Translations under genes and position numbers: made by a program
The notes under the pieces: model-generated
What the model was told of the DNA's origin: nothing
Database searches by the model: none
What the model saw: the letters and a program-made list of their open reading frames with translations, nothing else
From: a virus
Length of the DNA stretch: 64,000 nucleotides
Direction: 5' to 3' (one strand)
IMG/VR virus record: IMGVR_UViG_3300047311_000749
Coordinates: 1 to 64,000 of that record
Shown: one piece after another, positions 6,908-61,000 of the stretch
Layout of the letters: each line of letters begins with the position of its first letter
Numbering within the stretch: the stretch's first letter is position 1

Positions 6908-9322
6908 CTATGGCGCCGACTTCGGTCCGAACGTGAAGCGACCCTGGCCGGCTTTCTCGAGGAGCTGTTGGTTCTTCGGAGGGCGCGTCCGGTCCCACTG
7001 CGACCAATCCCGGAGCGGGAACGCGGCCGCGAGGAGTCGCTGAGTCGGCGGCCAGATCATCTTCTCCCAGAGGTAGTGACGATCGGCGTTCTGCCCGTCG
7101 TACTCGGACGCCGGGATCGCCTTCAGATTCCCTTCATCTTTCGACCCGTCCTGGATCACGTAGTCGATCTTCGACCCAATCACGATCTGCTCGCCCCGCT
7201 CCTCGAGTAAGCGCGCAATCGTGACGTGTGGCGGAACCGCCGCCGGCGTCTGGTCCTTCTTCAGTTTCTGCTCGTACTCGTCGGTCCGCTTCGAGAGCGC
7301 CCGGGATTGCTTCACGTCGTCGACCGTCAGGGGGTCCTCGAGAACGTGGCGCTTGTAGCACTCCACCACCTCGACGTACCGGGCCGGATCCATCGCGTCA
7401 GCTCGCGCGGGTGCGCATACGATCTTGATCGCCTCGTACTGGAGCGCGCGCGCGATCTTGTTCGCGTCACCGCGCTTCCACTCGAGGCCCTTCACTTCGG
7501 GCTTCGACTTGTCGGTCGCCCAGTTCCAATCGCCCCGCTTCGCGTCCCACCCGTAGTGACGAAGCCGGCCCACGTACTTCTTCGCCGACAGGATGACGAT
7601 CCGCTCGAACATCTTCTCGTACGCGAACGAGATCTTGTTCTCCTGACACCCGCACCCCCTCAGGAGATCCGGATAGAGGGACTCGTTGCACCATCGGGCG
7701 AACGCATCGAACTCGAGTTCGGTGCCGCCGACGATAAAGAGTGAATCGGTATCGCCGTACGTGGTCCGGAGGCCCTTACCGGTATGGGGACCGGGTCGCT
7801 CCGCGGCATCCGACGTGCGCTTGATCAACCAGACGCCGTTCTGCGTCACGCCCTCCGCGATATCGCGATCGAAAAACCTCGAGTAGATCGACCCTACGAC
7901 CCCGTAGAACGAATTGGCCGCGACCTTGTAGGCCATCGACTTCCGGTCAGCGTCACGCCACTCGTCCGTATTCGGAGGCAGCTCGCTCTTACGTTTCTTC
8001 CAGAAGTCGCGGAGCCGGATCAGCTCCTTGAGAGCGTCCGTCAGCATCCCGGCGATGTCGGTCCGGAACACGACCCCATTCGAGGGGGACCGGCAGAATC
8101 CCTCGGGCTGCTTCTCGGAACTCCGCTGACCGGGCGGTGTCGCGACCTTCGTGTCGGGCGACATGTTCCACGTGATCATGATGGACGGGTACAGGCTCTT
8201 GAAGTCCCCGACGTGAACGTTCTCGATGAACCCCTTGTCCTTCGGTTCCATTACCCAGGCGCCGGCGAACTGCTGCTCGGGTTCGCGGTCCCAGATCTTC
8301 GACGGGAAGTGGGTCCCGCGTTCGACCGCCACCCGGAGCATGAACCCATCGACGAACCGGGTTGGGTTCATCCCGTAGCTGTCCGGGAAGACCCCGCAGA
8401 CCTCCGAGATCGTCTGGTGAAGCGCCAGATAGCCGGTCTTCCGGTCGAGCTTCACGACGAGCGCGGAGTCCTGCCGCATGTACCGAACCATCTCGGCCCG
8501 CGACTTGTATCGGCCCTTGTCCTCCCAAGCCTCGAACGTCCGGCGAGGATCGAACTCTTCTTTCCCTTCCCCGATCATGGCCTCACAGACCACGTTCAGC
8601 TTCAGCGATACCTTCTCGTCACCCGACTCAGCGGCGTTCCGGTTCATCCGCTCGAACAACACCATGTAGTCGAGGAACAGCCACCGGCGCTTGTCCTTCA
8701 CGCGGGCCCGGACCTTCTGAACCCGAACCGGCATCAGCTGGAAGTCGAAGTCATCGCCATTCCAGGCGAGTACGAGATCGAACTCGTCGAGCGCGAGAAA
8801 AAACGCCTCCCAGAGATCCCGCTCCGCCTCGTCCGTATCGGCCTCCAGGACTCCCGTGATGTCGGTCAGGTCCGGGCGCGTGATGACCCACGAGAGCAGG
8901 CGGGCATTCCCAATAGCGGCCTCGCGCGGCGATACCCGCGAGTCGGTTTCGAAGTCGACCACGCACCAATTCGGCCGCGCGATCTTCGCACCCGAGTCAG
9001 CGAGAAACCGCTGAACCGGTGAAAGATCAGCCTCGAACGCGACAACGCCGGCGCGGCTTAGGGGGCTATCGGGCGAGCACGCTCGTTCCCGGACCCATCG
9101 GTCACTCCACCGGATCCGGACCCAATCGCCCTCGTCCGCGACCGAACGAACGAACCGCGAACTCGAGAGTTCCCGCAGATGGGGTTCGATCTCGGCCCTC
9201 CTGTAGAAGCTCGACCACTCCGCCGGGAGTCGACGCTGCATCAGGGCGTTTGCATCGTTCCGGTAGAGCAGGACCAACTGGTCCTGCTCTACGAACGCGG
9301 TCGTCAGCGCCGGAATCACCAC
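6908..9322 (-). CDS. family B DNA polymerase with 3'-5' exonuclease
   Basis: The 804-residue replicative polymerase has all exonuclease motifs: Exo I VVDFETD (121-127), Exo II AWNGDDFDFQL (186-196) and Exo III YMRQDSAL (281-288). The polymerase motifs are also intact: A GDFKSLYPSIM (372-382), B KVAANSFYGVVG (466-477) and C YGDTDS (522-527). Catalysis and proofreading should therefore both be active. There is no TPR2-type insertion between A and B that would suggest protein priming, so it probably uses the primase encoded upstream. Start GTG 9322 (or GTG 9319) is preceded by AGAGG. A clamp-like protein near 60 kb could be its processivity factor. Confidence 0.95.
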   Translation of the reverse strand: MVIPALTTAFVEQDQLVLLYRNDANALMQRRLPAEWSSFYRRAEIEPHLRELSSSRFVRSVADEGDWVRIRWSDRWVRERACSPDSPLSRAGVVAFEADLSPVQRFLADSGAKIARPNWCVVDFETDSRVSPREAAIGNARLLSWVITRPDLTDITGVLEADTDEAERDLWEAFFLALDEFDLVLAWNGDDFDFQLMPVRVQKVRARVKDKRRWLFLDYMVLFERMNRNAAESGDEKVSLKLNVVCEAMIGEGKEEFDPRRTFEAWEDKGRYKSRAEMVRYMRQDSALVVKLDRKTGYLALHQTISEVCGVFPDSYGMNPTRFVDGFMLRVAVERGTHFPSKIWDREPEQQFAGAWVMEPKDKGFIENVHVGDFKSLYPSIMITWNMSPDTKVATPPGQRSSEKQPEGFCRSPSNGVVFRTDIAGMLTDALKELIRLRDFWKKRKSELPPNTDEWRDADRKSMAYKVAANSFYGVVGSIYSRFFDRDIAEGVTQNGVWLIKRTSDAAERPGPHTGKGLRTTYGDTDSLFIVGGTELEFDAFARWCNESLYPDLLRGCGCQENKISFAYEKMFERIVILSAKKYVGRLRHYGWDAKRGDWNWATDKSKPEVKGLEWKRGDANKIARALQYEAIKIVCAPARADAMDPARYVEVVECYKRHVLEDPLTVDDVKQSRALSKRTDEYEQKLKKDQTPAAVPPHVTIARLLEERGEQIVIGSKIDYVIQDGSKDEGNLKAIPASEYDGQNADRHYLWEKMIWPPTQRLLAAAFPLRDWSQWDRTRPPKNQQLLEKAGQGRFTFGPKSAP

Positions 9323-10429: not shown

Positions 10430-11116
10430 TCAGGCCGCCATCCGTTCGATGTCCGAAACCGTGCAGCCGATATTGATCAGCGCTTGGTTGATCATTCTGG
10501 TCGCGATCGGTCCGTCGATTCCGGCGAACAGCTTCCCCGCGACCTCCCGCACCGATCCACCCGTCGCTACAAGGGCCTCGAGGATCGAGCGATCGAACGT
10601 CGTTCTGCACCGGGCCAGTATGGCGCGAACCTCCGCAACCCGTTCTTGGATCGGTTCCGCGACGACCATGTCGGCGGGATCGAATCCCCCTTCATCGACA
10701 CCCCGCATCGACGAAAACGGGACCGCGTACCGCGATGGGTTCTTGTCGCGCGTGCCGTGCTTGTTGCACTGGCGGGCGCGGTGGGCTTCCGCTTTGCCGA
10801 CAACTCCCGCCCCATAAAGTAAAAACCGCCCGATCGAAACACCACGCGAAGGATCGAATTCGGCGAACTTCTGCCAGACCGCCACCGCCATCTCTTGCTC
10901 GACGTCCTCGGCACCCGTGGGGGCCTTCCAGCGCCGTAGAATCCAGGCCGCTTTTGCCGCCAACACGGGACGCGTTTGCTTGTAAAAACACTCGAACGTA
11001 ATTCGGCCGTCTAGACAAGCTTGAGCTAATTCCTCGAACGAACCGCCGACCGGCGTGATGGTTTTGAGAGCTCGGTCGAGCGCTACCCGCGCCCCGGGTT
11101 CGTACCGTCTCCTCAT
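10430..11116 (-). CDS. sigma-70-like transcription factor (divergent)
   Basis: A 228-residue protein with a region 2-like block: GAEDVEQEMAVAVWQKF, then FDPSRGVSIGRFLLYG and a basic helix. This parallels the DxxQE...FDPxRG pattern of sigma factors. The C-terminal part (DRSILEALVATGGSVREVAGKL and a further helix) fits a region 4-like HTH. It could redirect host RNA polymerase to phage promoters. ATG 11116 is preferred over ATG 11161. A 174-nt gap upstream holds inverted repeats, so this gene probably begins its own transcript. Confidence 0.6.
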   Translation of the reverse strand: MRRRYEPGARVALDRALKTITPVGGSFEELAQACLDGRITFECFYKQTRPVLAAKAAWILRRWKAPTGAEDVEQEMAVAVWQKFAEFDPSRGVSIGRFLLYGAGVVGKAEAHRARQCNKHGTRDKNPSRYAVPFSSMRGVDEGGFDPADMVVAEPIQERVAEVRAILARCRTTFDRSILEALVATGGSVREVAGKLFAGIDGPIATRMINQALINIGCTVSDIERMAA

Positions 11117-16845: not shown

Positions 16846-16862
16846 TGCGGCCGAGATGGCTC

Positions 16863-56930: not shown

Positions 56931-57518
56931 TTAGCGAGCCGTTCGGGGGAAGGCCGGTGACGCTACGTCCCACGCGTCGAGCTCGGGGGTCCCGAGGTGA
57001 AGCGAGCAGTTCGGGCCGTCCCGGAGCCCGCTATACATCACGCTCGGGAGCGGGCCCTCGTAGTGAAGGTCGCCACCGGCGAACCGGAGCCCGAGCGCGT
57101 GGCCGAACTCGTGAAGCATCGCCCGGCGGAGCTCGTCCTCCGTGAACCCGAACCCCGCCACGATCGCGGGGTCGATCCCGATGTGGGCCGTCAGGGGCTC
57201 CGGGTTCTCGGCTCGCCAGCCCGTGCCGGCCAAGTGGGGCGCTACCGCTTCCGACTCGACCCGCCAGGTCCCGTCGTGCCACTCCGACCCCGCCGGAACC
57301 GAGACGACGAGGAACGACATCCCGGTCGCGGCCGACCACTCGGTCGCGGCTTCCTGGACCGGTTGAAAAAAGGTCTCGTCCGCCTCCACGATGACGTCCG
57401 CGGCCCTCGCGACTACCTGCCCGGCCTGGGGCGCCGGGTCGACCGTCGGGACCGGGCCGGCCCCGTAGGCGCACGCGTTCGCCAGCATCATCGTCGCCAC
57501 CAGAATCATCTTCTTCAT
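56931..57518 (-). CDS. metzincin-like metalloprotease with lipoprotein-type signal
   Basis: A 195-residue protein starting MKKMILVATMMLANACAYGA, a signal with a possible lipobox (ANAC, Cys at 16). The catalytic helix is HEFGHALGL (H136, E137, H140, G143). The third ligand appears to be H152, after FAGGDL, six residues later than in HExxHxxGxxH. The Met-turn is SVMYSG (M161), nine residues past H152, as in matrixins. It should act outside the cytoplasm, either as a host-envelope modifier or in lysis. Its promoter is one of the TGTCTAGACA set. Confidence 0.65.
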   Translation of the reverse strand: MKKMILVATMMLANACAYGAGPVPTVDPAPQAGQVVARAADVIVEADETFFQPVQEAATEWSAATGMSFLVVSVPAGSEWHDGTWRVESEAVAPHLAGTGWRAENPEPLTAHIGIDPAIVAGFGFTEDELRRAMLHEFGHALGLRFAGGDLHYEGPLPSVMYSGLRDGPNCSLHLGTPELDAWDVASPAFPRTAR

Positions 57519-57525
57519 GTCTCTC

Positions 57526-57557
57526 ATCATACTTGTCTAGACGACGTTGTCTAGACA
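57526..57557 (-). promoter_or_regulatory. operator-promoter of the metzincin gene (tandem TGTCTAGAC dyads)
   Basis: On the minus strand TAGACA (57553-57548), a 16-nt spacer and TATGAT (57531-57526) lie 7 nt before ATG 57518. Two dyads, TGTCTAGACA (57548-57557) and TGTCTAGACg (57534-57543), have centres 14 bp apart and cover the -35 and the spacer. Confidence 0.65.
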
Positions 57558-57604
57558 ATCTTAAGCGCCGTAAGCGCTTTCTTTTTTGACGAGAGTGGGC
57601 GCGG

Positions 57605-57790
57605 TTAAGAAGAAAGGTAGGACGACATCGCCTTCCGGATCAGATCCGTGATCCCGATGCCTTCCTGAAGGGCCCGGACCCGCCAGGTCTCATACTCGGA
57701 ATGCCGGAACCGGAACCCTCTCATCTTCGAGCTCTCGGGAGTCGGCGGAGTCGGGTCCGGCGGAACGGACTTCTGTTTTTTGGTTCTCAT
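57605..57790 (-). CDS. ribbon-helix-helix-like small regulator
   Basis: Sixty-one residues. After a Pro/Lys-rich start (TKKQKSVPPDPTPPTPESS), the C-terminal 36 residues read MRGFRFRHSEYETWRVRALQ, then EGIGITDLIRKAMSSYLSS. A strand and two helices with this pattern fit the CopG/Arc/MetJ fold. The gene abuts the dyads of the metzincin promoter. As RHH proteins bind tandem short dyads, it is a candidate regulator of the TGTCTAGACA sites. Confidence 0.55.
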   Translation of the reverse strand: MRTKKQKSVPPDPTPPTPESSKMRGFRFRHSEYETWRVRALQEGIGITDLIRKAMSSYLSS

Positions 57791-57809
57791 GGGATGTCTA
57801 TACGGGCTT

Positions 57810-58289
57810 TCAACCCTCCCGTACACCCCTCCAGTACCAGAGGGCGCGGGGTACTAACGAAGGACGGACGCGAGAGCTAGGCGGGTCGTCGTACGAGCCG
57901 CCCGGACTTTCGCCGACGATCTTCGGATCTCCCAGATCCGAGCCGCGATCCGGCCCGCGTCCTCGGCTCGCCCCGCCCGCATCGCGAGCTTCCACTCCTC
58001 CTGCAACCCCGCGATCAACTCCGTTTCCATCTTCCGTCCCTCCTGCGTTCGTTCCATGCCCCTTAGGAACGGCGCTGTCTAGACAACCTTTAACGCTTTC
58101 TTGCGGCATCGCGGGAGGGGGAAAGGACGACATTGCGCCCGCTGGCCTCACGAGGATCCGGCGGTAGCCGATCCGGCGGAGCTGTGAGACCGCGAGGTCA
58201 ACGAACCCACCCTGTCGGGTCAGCGTCACGTTCCGGCTTCCCTCTCGGTGGTGCGTCCCGATAACCCGGTAGGATTCGTCTTCACACAT
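57810..58289 (-). CDS. unknown small protein with doubtful C-terminus
   Basis: The first 65 residues (MCEDESYRVIGTHHREGSRN, then VTLTRQGGFVDLAVSQLRRI and GYRRILVRPAG) look like a real small fold, and ATG 58289 overlaps the previous stop (ATGTGTGA). The rest of the 159-residue frame is low-complexity Gly/Arg, overlaps another gene and contains an operator dyad, so it may be non-functional read-through or the trace of a frameshift. The true 3' end is unsure. Confidence 0.4.
   Translation of the reverse strand: MCEDESYRVIGTHHREGSRNVTLTRQGGFVDLAVSQLRRIGYRRILVRPAGAMSSFPPPAMPQESVKGCLDSAVPKGHGTNAGGTEDGNGVDRGVAGGVEARDAGGASRGRGPDRGSDLGDPKIVGESPGGSYDDPPSSRVRPSLVPRALWYWRGVREG
57854..58030 (-). CDS. small helical protein
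   Basis: Fifty-eight residues: METELIAGLQEEWKLAMRAG, then RAEDAGRIAARIWEIRRSSA, and a basic end. ATG 58030 has GGAGGG upstream. It is fully inside the doubtful frame of the previous entry, which weakens one of the two. It may be one of a set of small early proteins. Confidence 0.5.
   Translation of the reverse strand: METELIAGLQEEWKLAMRAGRAEDAGRIAARIWEIRRSSAKVRAARTTTRLALASVLR
58076..58085. promoter_or_regulatory. single TGTCTAGACA dyad
   Basis: A perfect 10-bp dyad 46 nt before the ATG at 58030. Unlike the other three sites it has no partner dyad and no -10 at the same spacing, so it may be an auxiliary or decayed operator. Confidence 0.5.
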
Positions 58290-58608
58290 CGAGTTCCTCT
58301 TTCGCGATCTCACACAGCAGTTTTGACGCAACCGGGTCGAGCGCGTGAAGGCGTCCGAATGCGGTCCTACGAGTCAGCGGGTACTCGAGCTCGGCCGCCG
58401 CGTGAAGTCCCCCGGATGACCCCGGGAACAACTCGAGCGCGAGGTCCGACCAAGGTGCCTTCCGGGCCGAGCTCGACTTCCGGACGACTCCGTCGGTCCC
58501 CCGGACGAGCGCGAAGATCCGGTAGAACCCACGCTGGTCCCAGAACGCGCGGCCCGCGCGCCAGTCCCGCAACATGCACCGGTACAGGTGGGCGCGTCGT
58601 TCGATCAC
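58282..58608 (-). CDS. unknown 108-residue protein
   Basis: A basic, aromatic start (IERRAHLYRCMLRDWRAGRA) leads to a beta stretch (FYRIFALVRGTDGVVRKSSS) and a helical end (HALDPVASKLLCEIAKEELD). GTG 58608 overlaps the upstream TGA (GTGA). Family unknown. It belongs to the early operon led by the gene at 59592. Confidence 0.5.
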   Translation of the reverse strand: MIERRAHLYRCMLRDWRAGRAFWDQRGFYRIFALVRGTDGVVRKSSSARKAPWSDLALELFPGSSGGLHAAAELEYPLTRRTAFGRLHALDPVASKLLCEIAKEELDV

Positions 58609-59093
58609 GCCGGATCCCTTTCGCTCGACAGCTTCCGCCGCATATCCTGCTCGAGTTCGTCGAGCGCTCCCGGGAACGACTCCCGAATGGTCTCGCCGGC
58701 GATGGAGCGCCCCAGTACCTGCTGAAACAACCGGTACGCGAGGTTCGTCGGGTCGGCCCGGAGCGGGGCCACTAGGCTCGTTTTCGACAGGCTAGCGAGG
58801 CACTCGGCGGTCGTCCCAGGCTTGAGATCTTCATCGCGCGCTACGCGGTCGAGGAGCTCTTGAACGTGGTGCCGGTACAGGCGCTCGTTCCGGAACTCAG
58901 ACAGCATTCCCGGGTAGAGGATCCGGAACGCCCCGTGGATCGCATCGGCTCGTTTCGGGTGCGCCCGCTTCGCGCGCGCGATCTCTTTTTCCGCGACCCC
59001 CATGCAGTCGAACGCCCACGAGATAGACGACGCGATGCCGGTCTCGACCCCGAGGAGGTGAGCGATGTCCTTCCCGGTAGGGAACGCGCTCAC
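58605..59093 (-). CDS. unknown 162-residue protein
   Basis: A helical protein (SAFPTGKDIAHLLGVETGIA, EKEIARAKRAHPKRADAIHG, RHHVQELLDRVARDEDLKPG). GTG 59093 overlaps the upstream TGA (GTGA), and its stop overlaps the next GTG. The pattern suggests a small DNA- or protein-binding helical bundle. Function unknown. Confidence 0.5.
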   Translation of the reverse strand: MSAFPTGKDIAHLLGVETGIASSISWAFDCMGVAEKEIARAKRAHPKRADAIHGAFRILYPGMLSEFRNERLYRHHVQELLDRVARDEDLKPGTTAECLASLSKTSLVAPLRADPTNLAYRLFQQVLGRSIAGETIRESFPGALDELEQDMRRKLSSERDPA

Positions 59094-59362
59094 GACTGCG
59101 CCTCGATCCGGATCATATCGGTGACGGCGCCCGCGATACGGGTAGGGGAGCACCCTTCGTGCCGGGACCAGATGACCCGGTCGCTCTCGTAGTCCCAGCA
59201 GCCGACCGCGAACCCAACCCACTCGCCCGCAACATTCTGATCGACCTCTACCCGGCCGGAGCCGGCCCACCAGCGAACTTCGAGCTCGATGCCGCCCGGG
59301 AGCTCGCCCCCCATCGTTCGGGTCGGCTCGGAAGCCCTACGGGGCGGGAACGCGGCCCTCAT
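59090..59362 (-). CDS. unknown 90-residue protein
   Basis: A beta-rich small protein (GGIELEVRWWAGSGRVEVDQ, WVGFAVGCWDYESDRVIWSR). ATG 59362 overlaps the TGA of the gene before (ATGA). It forms part of a four-gene coupled run. Function unknown. Confidence 0.5.
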   Translation of the reverse strand: MRAAFPPRRASEPTRTMGGELPGGIELEVRWWAGSGRVEVDQNVAGEWVGFAVGCWDYESDRVIWSRHEGCSPTRIAGAVTDMIRIEAQS

Positions 59363-59592
59363 CGGGCGAGCTCGCGCGAGTACGTGTGGGTCCCGTAGAG
59401 CGGGCTCCAGGTCGCGACGAGCGTCCCAGCGCGGTCGATCCGAGCCTCGAACCCGCGACCGCGAGCAGCCGTCAGGGCCTCCTCGTAGGAAGCGGTTTCG
59501 ATCGGCTCGTGCCACGAGAAGTTACAGGAGCGGACCACGTAGAGGTTGGGATTCTGAACCGTCGTTTTGGCTGCCGTCGTCATCGTCTTCAT
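59359..59592 (-). CDS. unknown 77-residue protein, first gene of an operator-controlled run
   Basis: MKTMTTAAKTTVQNPNLYVV is followed by a small alpha/beta fold (HEPIETASYEEALTAARGRG, EARIDRAGTLVATWSPLYG). The ATG lies only 6 nt after the predicted -10 of the operator-promoter, so the transcript may be leaderless. It is likely an early gene. Function unknown. Confidence 0.55.
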   Translation of the reverse strand: MKTMTTAAKTTVQNPNLYVVRSCNFSWHEPIETASYEEALTAARGRGFEARIDRAGTLVATWSPLYGTHTYSRELAR

Positions 59593-59598
59593 GATCCA

Positions 59599-59630
59599 AC
59601 ACTAGCGTGTCTAGACACCGTGTCTAGACA
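59599..59630 (-). promoter_or_regulatory. operator-promoter of the gene at 59592
   Basis: TAGACA (59626-59621), a 16-nt spacer, TAGTGT (59604-59599). Dyads TGTCTAGACA lie at 59621-59630 and 59608-59617, with centres 13 bp apart. The 35-nt block from 59601 is identical to that at 60971 except at one base. Confidence 0.65.
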
Positions 59631-59644
59631 ATTCGCATCTCCCC

Positions 59645-59896
59645 CTAACGAATCTTGAATTGGACCGTGTTCAGCTCAAGATGACTGCCCCACCGGATCG
59701 CAGTCCCGCCGAGGTGGACGGTGTCGGTTACGTCGATCCGGGCGCCCGGTTGGGACTCCTGGATCGTCGGAAGGAGCTCCCGCCAGACATCATGCATCAC
59801 GAGATGGCCGACCAAGAGCGCTTCGGGCTTCCGACCCGTTTCGAGCTCGATTAGGCGTGCGAGTGCAATCAACAACCCTACCGTCGGTTTAGGCAT
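59645..59896 (-). CDS. unknown 83-residue protein
   Basis: MPKPTVGLLIALARLIELET starts a helix, and a beta half follows (GARIDVTDTVHLGGTAIRWG, ELNTVQFKIR). GGAGAG lies before the ATG. It is the gene after the clamp-like protein and may share its transcript. Function unknown. Confidence 0.5.
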   Translation of the reverse strand: MPKPTVGLLIALARLIELETGRKPEALLVGHLVMHDVWRELLPTIQESQPGARIDVTDTVHLGGTAIRWGSHLELNTVQFKIR

Positions 59897-59954
59897 TGTT
59901 CTCTCTCCTTTTTTGGTTCACAGCAACCGTACTTTTCTTCCGCAAAACTTGCGC

Positions 59955-60641
59955 CTACATCCGCATCGGCATGACGACGATCGACCATTCGGACCCATTC
60001 GCGGGACACCGGACCGTCCCGAGGAGCGGATCCAGATCGCTCGCGGGCGGTTGGATCTCGACTCCCGGGTAGAGTTTATCGGTCCCCCGGTCGGAACGTT
60101 TAATGATCGTCGGCGGGCACGCCTTCGTCACAAGCGCGAGGTCCGCCAGGTACGGACCGTTGAAGCAGGCCGTCGCGCCCCCCTTGTGCTTCGGGTCGCG
60201 CCGTTCCGGTACGACCGCGTCGAGATGGTTCGGCGCTTCGTCCGACAGGAACGCCTCGTAGGAGGCGCGGCAGAAGTTCGATCCGGGCGAGATGGGCTCC
60301 ATCACCTCGACGCGGCACTTCGCGATCTCGGACGCGGAACCGGGCCCCGTGATCCGGATCTCGTCCTTCGGAGCCGCATGCTTGATCGCGCTCTCGACGG
60401 TCTCGCGCTTAACGCCCTCGACGGGGCGCTCGATCGCGCGGTCGTGGTCGACCCGCTCCCCCTTCAGGATCGCGCCGCGGTGCCCGTCCGTAGCCCAGCA
60501 GCGACCCGTCTTCTGGTCGAGCACCAGGATCGATATCCCGGGGCGCGTAACATCCGTCGACATGAACGCGAGGAGCGCGACGAGCTCCTGCTTCGAGAAG
60601 TGCCAGGTCGTTCGCCCCGATTCGTCTACCGTCGTTTTCAC
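59955..60641 (-). CDS. two-domain DnaN-like sliding clamp
   Basis: A 228-residue protein that matches domains II and III of the bacterial beta clamp without domain I. The first half has HFSKQELVALLAFMSTDVTR and CWATDGHRGAIL (50-58), where beta clamps have the ATDGHRLA block. The second has ACFNGPYLADLALVTKACPP, and the end WSIVVMPMRM matches the terminal VVMPMRL. The length equals that of trimeric clamps such as T4 gp45. It may tether the family B polymerase. A regulatory decoy that binds clamp partners is the alternative. Confidence 0.7.
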   Translation of the reverse strand: MKTTVDESGRTTWHFSKQELVALLAFMSTDVTRPGISILVLDQKTGRCWATDGHRGAILKGERVDHDRAIERPVEGVKRETVESAIKHAAPKDEIRITGPGSASEIAKCRVEVMEPISPGSNFCRASYEAFLSDEAPNHLDAVVPERRDPKHKGGATACFNGPYLADLALVTKACPPTIIKRSDRGTDKLYPGVEIQPPASDLDPLLGTVRCPANGSEWSIVVMPMRM

Positions 60642-60961
60642 GAGACCACCGCCGGTGCATAGGCACGAACGAGCCGCGGTAGGTCGGATAGGCGCGTGCG
60701 ATGGGGCTCTCGGACGTGCTTATCGAGAGCTTTCCGAGCTCCCTTAACTAGGGAGCGGAGTTCCGACTTCTCATATAGTCCGATCTCGTCGGCGAGAATC
60801 CAAAGTAGATTCGTGGGCAACGAGCGGGCAACGACCTGGCCGATAATCGTGGTCGTCAGGTACCCGTCCGACCAGCCCTGGACGAGCACGTTATCAGCCG
60901 TTCGGCGAGAAAAGATGATATGGGGAGCCGAACATCCACACGAACAATTCGTCGTCTTCAT
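60638..60961 (-). CDS. unknown protein with N-terminal Cys cluster
   Basis: A 107-residue protein: MKTTNCSCGCSAPHIIFSRR opens with CSCGC, then LWILADEIGLYEKSELRSLV and a helical basic end. ATG 60961 is chosen over 60970 because the latter lies inside the predicted -10. Its TGA overlaps the clamp ATG (ATGA), so the clamp is expressed from this operator-promoter. Function unknown. Confidence 0.55.
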   Translation of the reverse strand: MKTTNCSCGCSAPHIIFSRRTADNVLVQGWSDGYLTTTIIGQVVARSLPTNLLWILADEIGLYEKSELRSLVKGARKALDKHVREPHRTRLSDLPRLVRAYAPAVVS

Positions 60962-60968
60962 GAACCTC

Positions 60969-61000
60969 ATACTAGCGTGTCTAGACACGGTGTCTAGACA
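60969..61000 (-). promoter_or_regulatory. operator-promoter of the clamp operon
   Basis: TAGACA (60996-60991), a 16-nt spacer, TAGTAT (60974-60969), 7 nt before ATG 60961. Dyads TGTCTAGACA lie at 60991-61000 and 60978-60987. It is in the gap shared with the divergent transglycosylase gene. Confidence 0.65.

Follow-up and report, generated by a model that had tools for sequence, protein, structure and literature searches.

A 10-bp palindromic word, TGTCTAGACA, recurs in tandem over promoters in an uncultured phage, and these sites are very probably repressor operators built over σ70-type promoters. The window analyzed here covers positions 1–64,000 of the virus record IMGVR_UViG_3300047311_000749, of which the full contig is 69,356 bp, and was compared with a near-identical relative (IMGVR_UViG_3300046837_000396, G001) of 96,054 bp, which is apparently circular and was treated as such because it carries a 127-bp terminal repeat. 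In the relative, 13 exact copies of the word were found versus 0.0047 expected under a second-order Markov model, distributed over six tandem sites, named A, C, D, E, F and Z, and two exact dyads that stand alone (B and the copy at 16853). The cis-element, its geometry and its conservation can be read directly from the DNA, as can a candidate Arc-like ribbon-helix-helix (RHH) protein encoded between two of the sites; the complete reading, in which this protein represses the promoters, has about an even chance of being correct. Genes were called with our own simple codon-usage script; searches returned no named phage as a close relative of the contig, and Rfam gave no match. The sites are as follows.

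57526–57557, minus strand: operator-promoter A, −35 TAGACA (57553–57548), 16-nt spacer, −10 TATGAT (57531–57526); dyads at 57548–57557 (exact) and 57534–57543 (one mismatch), 14 bp apart
58076–58085, minus strand: single dyad B, upstream of a two-gene unit that ends in the Arc-like gene
59599–59630, minus strand: operator-promoter C, −35 TAGACA (59626–59621), −10 TAGTGT (59604–59599); two exact dyads 13 bp apart
60969–61000, minus strand: operator-promoter D, −35 TAGACA (60996–60991), −10 TAGTAT (60974–60969); two exact dyads 13 bp apart
65349–65371 of the contig, just beyond the window: tandem site E
69056–69078 of the contig, just beyond the window: tandem site F
27221–27243 of the relative: tandem site Z, the sixth

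Exact copies in the window start at 57548, 58076, 59608, 59621, 60978 and 60991, and the single one-mismatch copy of the tandem sites (TGTCTAGACG) at 57534. The original prediction had reported three promoters of the form TAGACA-N16-TATGAT/TAGTGT/TAGTAT with dyads 13–14 bp apart, and our coordinates, hexamers and spacers for A, C and D agreed with it throughout, as did the near-identity of the sites at 59.6 and 60.97 kb (one base different over 35 nt) and the solitary state of the dyad at 58076, for which no recognizable −10 was found. The genome-wide search that it had proposed for pairs of the same spacing yielded E and F in the contig and Z in the relative. Nor did the dyads show a random scatter across structural genes, since all exact and one-mismatch copies in the 69-kb contig clustered within 57.5–69.1 kb, bar one single dyad at window position 11008; in the relative, tandem sites were located at 95.3 kb and 1.4–27.2 kb, and none fell in the block of recognized structural and core replication genes. 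The sole copy off the cluster (CGTCTAGACA, one mismatch, window 11008–11017, G001:48823–48832) lies between predicted genes, in a gap of 399 nt. The second exact single dyad of the relative (G001:16853–16862) overlaps the ATG of a 135-aa open reading frame (ORF), where ATGTCTAGACAA encodes MSRQ.

On the minus strand, which also carries the genes that they precede, sites A, C and D follow one order: dyad, linker of 3 or 4 nt, dyad and TANNNT box. The −35 hexamer falls within the upstream dyad, and the spacer is taken up by the downstream one. TAGACA-N16-TANNNT was present at all six tandem sites and nowhere else (background frequency of TANNNT, 0.0026 per position), and on neither strand of the whole relative did the TAGACA/TANNNT pair occur at any spacing between 10 and 23 nt except 16. 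At site A the linker is 4 nt instead of 3, and the second dyad is followed by AG (2 nt) before the −10, where the other sites have CGC or CGG (3 nt), so that the longer linker is offset and the spacer stays at 16 nt. TAGACA matches the TTGACA consensus at five of six positions, and a −35/−10 pair in the σ70-type range of 16–18 nt was found at all six sites (scores of 10/12 for A and 9/12 for D, with weak −10 boxes at C, F and Z; A and D were the only σ70-like promoters found in 56.5–64 kb). In comparisons with related contigs, the linker of site Z reads ACG versus CGT in G003, and one linker base of site E changes from C to T in G002, both dyads being unchanged in each case; because linker bases vary between relatives while the dyads stay constant, the dyads appear to be the recognized parts.

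Two points go beyond the original prediction, namely the leaderless layout of five of the six promoters and a candidate regulator. At A, C, D, E and F the ATG starts 6–7 nt past the −10, and TANNNT boxes so close to a start codon are the leaderless arrangement described previously (PMC3160421, PMC12340547); because of this short distance, the mRNAs from these five sites are probably leaderless. At site Z the leader is 37 nt long and includes a Shine-Dalgarno sequence. The genes behind the sites are listed below.

56931–57518, minus strand: metzincin-like protein, a putative secreted protease; first gene behind site A, with its ATG 7 nt past the −10
58605–59093, minus strand: 162-aa ORF without functional assignment, within the site C unit
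59359–59592, minus strand: 77-aa ORF, first gene behind site C, ATG 6 nt past the −10
59955–60641, minus strand: 228-aa ORF, second gene behind site D
60638–60961, minus strand: 107-aa ORF, first gene behind site D, ATG 7 nt past the −10
65330–66151 of the contig (L005:5330–6151), minus strand, beyond the window: phage-encoded RpoH-like sigma-70 family factor

In the metzincin-like protein, an HExxH...H motif and a Met-turn are visible (HEFGHALGLRF...DLH, VMYS), and Pfam Matrixin was matched with E 0.012, below the curated cut-off. The 228-aa ORF had been named a clamp, an identity that no search confirmed: it had no Pfam, PDB or phage match, its sole PHROG match was PHROG 3007, labelled RusA-like (E 1.9e-5), and its structure model was of low confidence. 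Behind site F are small genes, an ORF that we take to be DUF932-like and, last, the RpoH-like sigma factor; site E is embedded in the 3′ end of the sigma gene, where its dyads encode the C-terminal CLDTVSR, and the next operon follows it. Behind site Z of the relative is a UvrD/Rep-like helicase gene. The original prediction had grouped the sites into a regulon of small early genes, the clamp and the metzincin. The matched operator-promoters do define a multi-operon set with the metzincin-like gene first behind A; the supposed clamp enters it as the 228-aa ORF of unconfirmed identity, and the set is larger than described, as it takes in the sigma-factor operon and, in the relative, the helicase operon. 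That these genes are expressed early is a guess.

The candidate regulator is encoded beside the sites, together with two neighbouring features.

57563–57579, plus strand: terminator-like hairpin followed by a T-run, in the interval from the Arc-like gene to site A (the count of such sites in the region is not above that in shuffled sequences)
57605–57793, minus strand: 62-aa Arc-like protein of putative ribbon-helix-helix type, located between dyad B and site A
57854–58030, minus strand: ORF of 58 aa with a Shine-Dalgarno start, flanked by dyad B and the Arc-like gene (67 aa if read from the upstream ATG at 58057)

The Arc-like protein matched PHROG 6506, 'Arc-like repressor' (E 2.7e-5), and a NikA-like profile (E 0.095). 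Its structure, modelled at medium confidence with no alignment, was predicted as strand-helix-helix (strand 27–30, helices 31–44 and 48–60), which is the order of an RHH fold. Among the proteins of the phage there was no GntR, UTRA or HTH_3 match above cut-off, and the region's small proteins yielded no other DNA-binding repressor family. The Arc-like protein is the best repressor candidate for the dyads, and we regard the chances for and against this assignment as evenly balanced.

Several observations weigh against repression of σ70-type promoters by the Arc-like protein. The six sites cannot be counted as fully independent, since three of them (C, D and E) look duplicated. Foldseek neighbours of the model were mostly RHH proteins (NikA, CopG, Arc, PutA, ParD and AmrZ), all at E 0.46 or worse; Pfam RHH_1 gave no match to the protein, and its link to the dyads is an inferred one. 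Searches for diverged relatives, run with a relaxed operator pattern as well as with the Arc-like protein and the sigma factor, brought back nothing beyond this phage species and its close variants; the Arc-like gene was 100% identical in every related contig where it was seen, which leaves nothing in it to co-vary with the operator. Autoregulation of the Arc-like gene via dyad B is speculative because dyad B has no clear promoter. Furthermore, the operator resembles those of another family: GTCTAGAC is a GTMTAKAC palindrome that fits the HutC consensus NyGTMTAKACNy (PMC4494728), and the BguR operator of Streptococcus pneumoniae, AAAAATGTCTAGACAAATTT, has the same 10-bp core and overlaps a −35 (PMC3585215).

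This resemblance suggests that a host-encoded GntR/HutC repressor could bind the operators and tie the gene block to a host metabolic signal, an explanation that we consider unlikely while placing it first among the alternatives. Double sites are common in HutC regulons (PMC4494728), and among the operators of this family (BguR, GmuR and the dre-sites of DasR/NagR) the BguR core is identical to TGTCTAGACA and lies over a −35 (PMC3585215); unlike the situation here, HutC sites are bound by a UTRA-domain protein, and the phage is without one. In the relative, a complete genome, no UTRA domain and no GntR match above cut-off was found, the sole weak GntR match falling in region 4 of the sigma factor. 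A dyad spacing of 13 bp would also be tight for two HutC dimers if each contacts about 15 bp, and in unrelated genomes the same tandem dyad adjoins XRE or TetR genes, so that the core does not name a family. Taken as a whole, a compact and mostly leaderless cassette in which the palindrome doubles as the −35, present at no fewer than six operons (one with a sigma factor, and one copy inside the end of the sigma gene) and possibly controlled by a host sugar-type GntR regulator, is in our estimate a doubtful proposition.

A different phage protein, without a recognizable DNA-binding domain, might instead regulate the operators, since the region holds many small unannotated proteins, among them a 115-aa protein weakly similar to the Q-like antitermination family; however, an RHH protein is already encoded between two sites, and we rate this possibility low, below that of a host repressor. 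Another role for the tandem dyads would be that of MotA-like activator sites that turn middle promoters on. The −10 boxes match TATAAT only in part, and the dyads cover the −35, which phage activators can replace, as at T4 middle promoters; but here the −35 matches its consensus at five of six positions and the spacer is strictly 16 nt, which leaves no need for a substitute, and a dimer bound in the spacer is expected to block the polymerase, making activation distinctly improbable. Finally, we give hardly any weight to an RNA hairpin (10-bp stem, 3-nt loop) serving as a processing or termination signal in read-through transcripts, for which speak a predicted fold of −13 to −14 kcal/mol and a terminator-like streptococcal counterpart pair flanked by A and T runs, but against which stand a stem sequence that does not vary across the six sites and shows no compensatory change, the lack of the end pair at site A, the existence of a single dyad, the absence of a following T-run and a strict 16-nt spacing that a hairpin leaves unexplained. 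The phage sigma factor was also considered as the reader of the dyads and rejected; the promoters look like ordinary σ70 promoters, and sigma factors are not known to read palindromes.

Repression by a protein bound to the tandem dyads has precedents. Phage-wide regulons with repeated operators are represented by the P1 C1 operators, the conserved inverted repeats of the phiC31 repressor and the L5 Gp71 sites, in which, as proposed here, one short operator lies at many promoters of one phage and one repressor serves several operons. Unlike these, each tandem site here pairs one 10-bp palindrome within the −35 and spacer and is mostly leaderless, and family searches found neither an integrase nor a classical helix-turn-helix repressor in the phage. 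Among RHH proteins, MetJ is a repressor of which adjacent dimers bind tandem palindromic boxes at a spacing of 8. The present candidate is likewise small and phage-encoded, as are Arc and Mnt, and tandem palindromes would suit adjacent dimers; yet the sequence similarity is weak, the spacing is 13–14 bp versus 8 for MetJ, and DNA binding is putative. The −10 boxes 6–7 nt before the ATG, with no need for a Shine-Dalgarno sequence, resemble the TANNNT leaderless promoters of Actinobacteria and Deinococcus-Thermus, but differ from them in that a −35 is also present, inside the operator. Tandem dyads of bacterial genomes were rejected as homologues; they sit at Streptococcus terminator-like hairpins, beside TetR/XRE genes and in plasmid arrays. 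Arrays of three or four TGTCTAGACA dyads were also seen near 7238 in the unrelated contig L037 and near 3413 in L038, one of these being plasmid-like, with a replication-type gene adjoining the array, and the other a phage, with a lysozyme-like gene next to it.

The genome carries another perfect palindrome, 18 bp in length and so longer than the dyad, ACCGCGCCGCGCGGCGCGGT (with CCGCGCCGCGCGGCGCGG as its core), with 16 copies in the relative. In the window it occurs at 2683, 12022, 16864, 18037, 28305, 41534, 44776, 51641, 54710 and 62740; there are no near-miss copies bar shifted self-overlaps, about half lie within predicted genes and about half between, and the places are the same in relatives. 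It was seen in this phage clade and in one contig (L051) that does not align to the relative; other contigs with it were mostly the same phage (99.99–100%), and no diverged operators were gained from them. The late-promoter motif GTTGAAC was not enriched on the coding strand near it. Elsewhere in the relative, the region at 31–48 kb (window start to about 11 kb) encodes a family B DNA polymerase, a DnaB-like helicase, a RecA/UvsX-like protein, a TET-associated glycosyltransferase and an epimerase, a gene content that hints at modified DNA.

With the Arc-like protein as the repressor, two of its dimers would sit side by side, 13–14 bp apart, and block RNA polymerase, and the protein might limit its own expression through the upstream dyad B. 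In the absence of the repressor or after its release, the host polymerase would start at or beside the ATG at five of the six sites and produce leaderless mRNAs. At least six operons would thereby be switched jointly, comprising the metzincin, several small-gene operons, the RpoH-like sigma operon and, in the relative, the UvrD/Rep-like helicase operon; one DNA-binding repressor can probably hold this block of auxiliary genes, sigma factor included, off or on together. The set itself is real, tightly built and of a known kind, and a phage-encoded repressor for it is plausible but unproven. An uncultured 96-kb phage clade thus gains a testable circuit with a single 10-bp word, one fixed geometry of its promoters and a best candidate for the repressor; the circuit predicts operons that are switched together, a sigma factor among them, and offers a compact case of leaderless promoters merged with operators.

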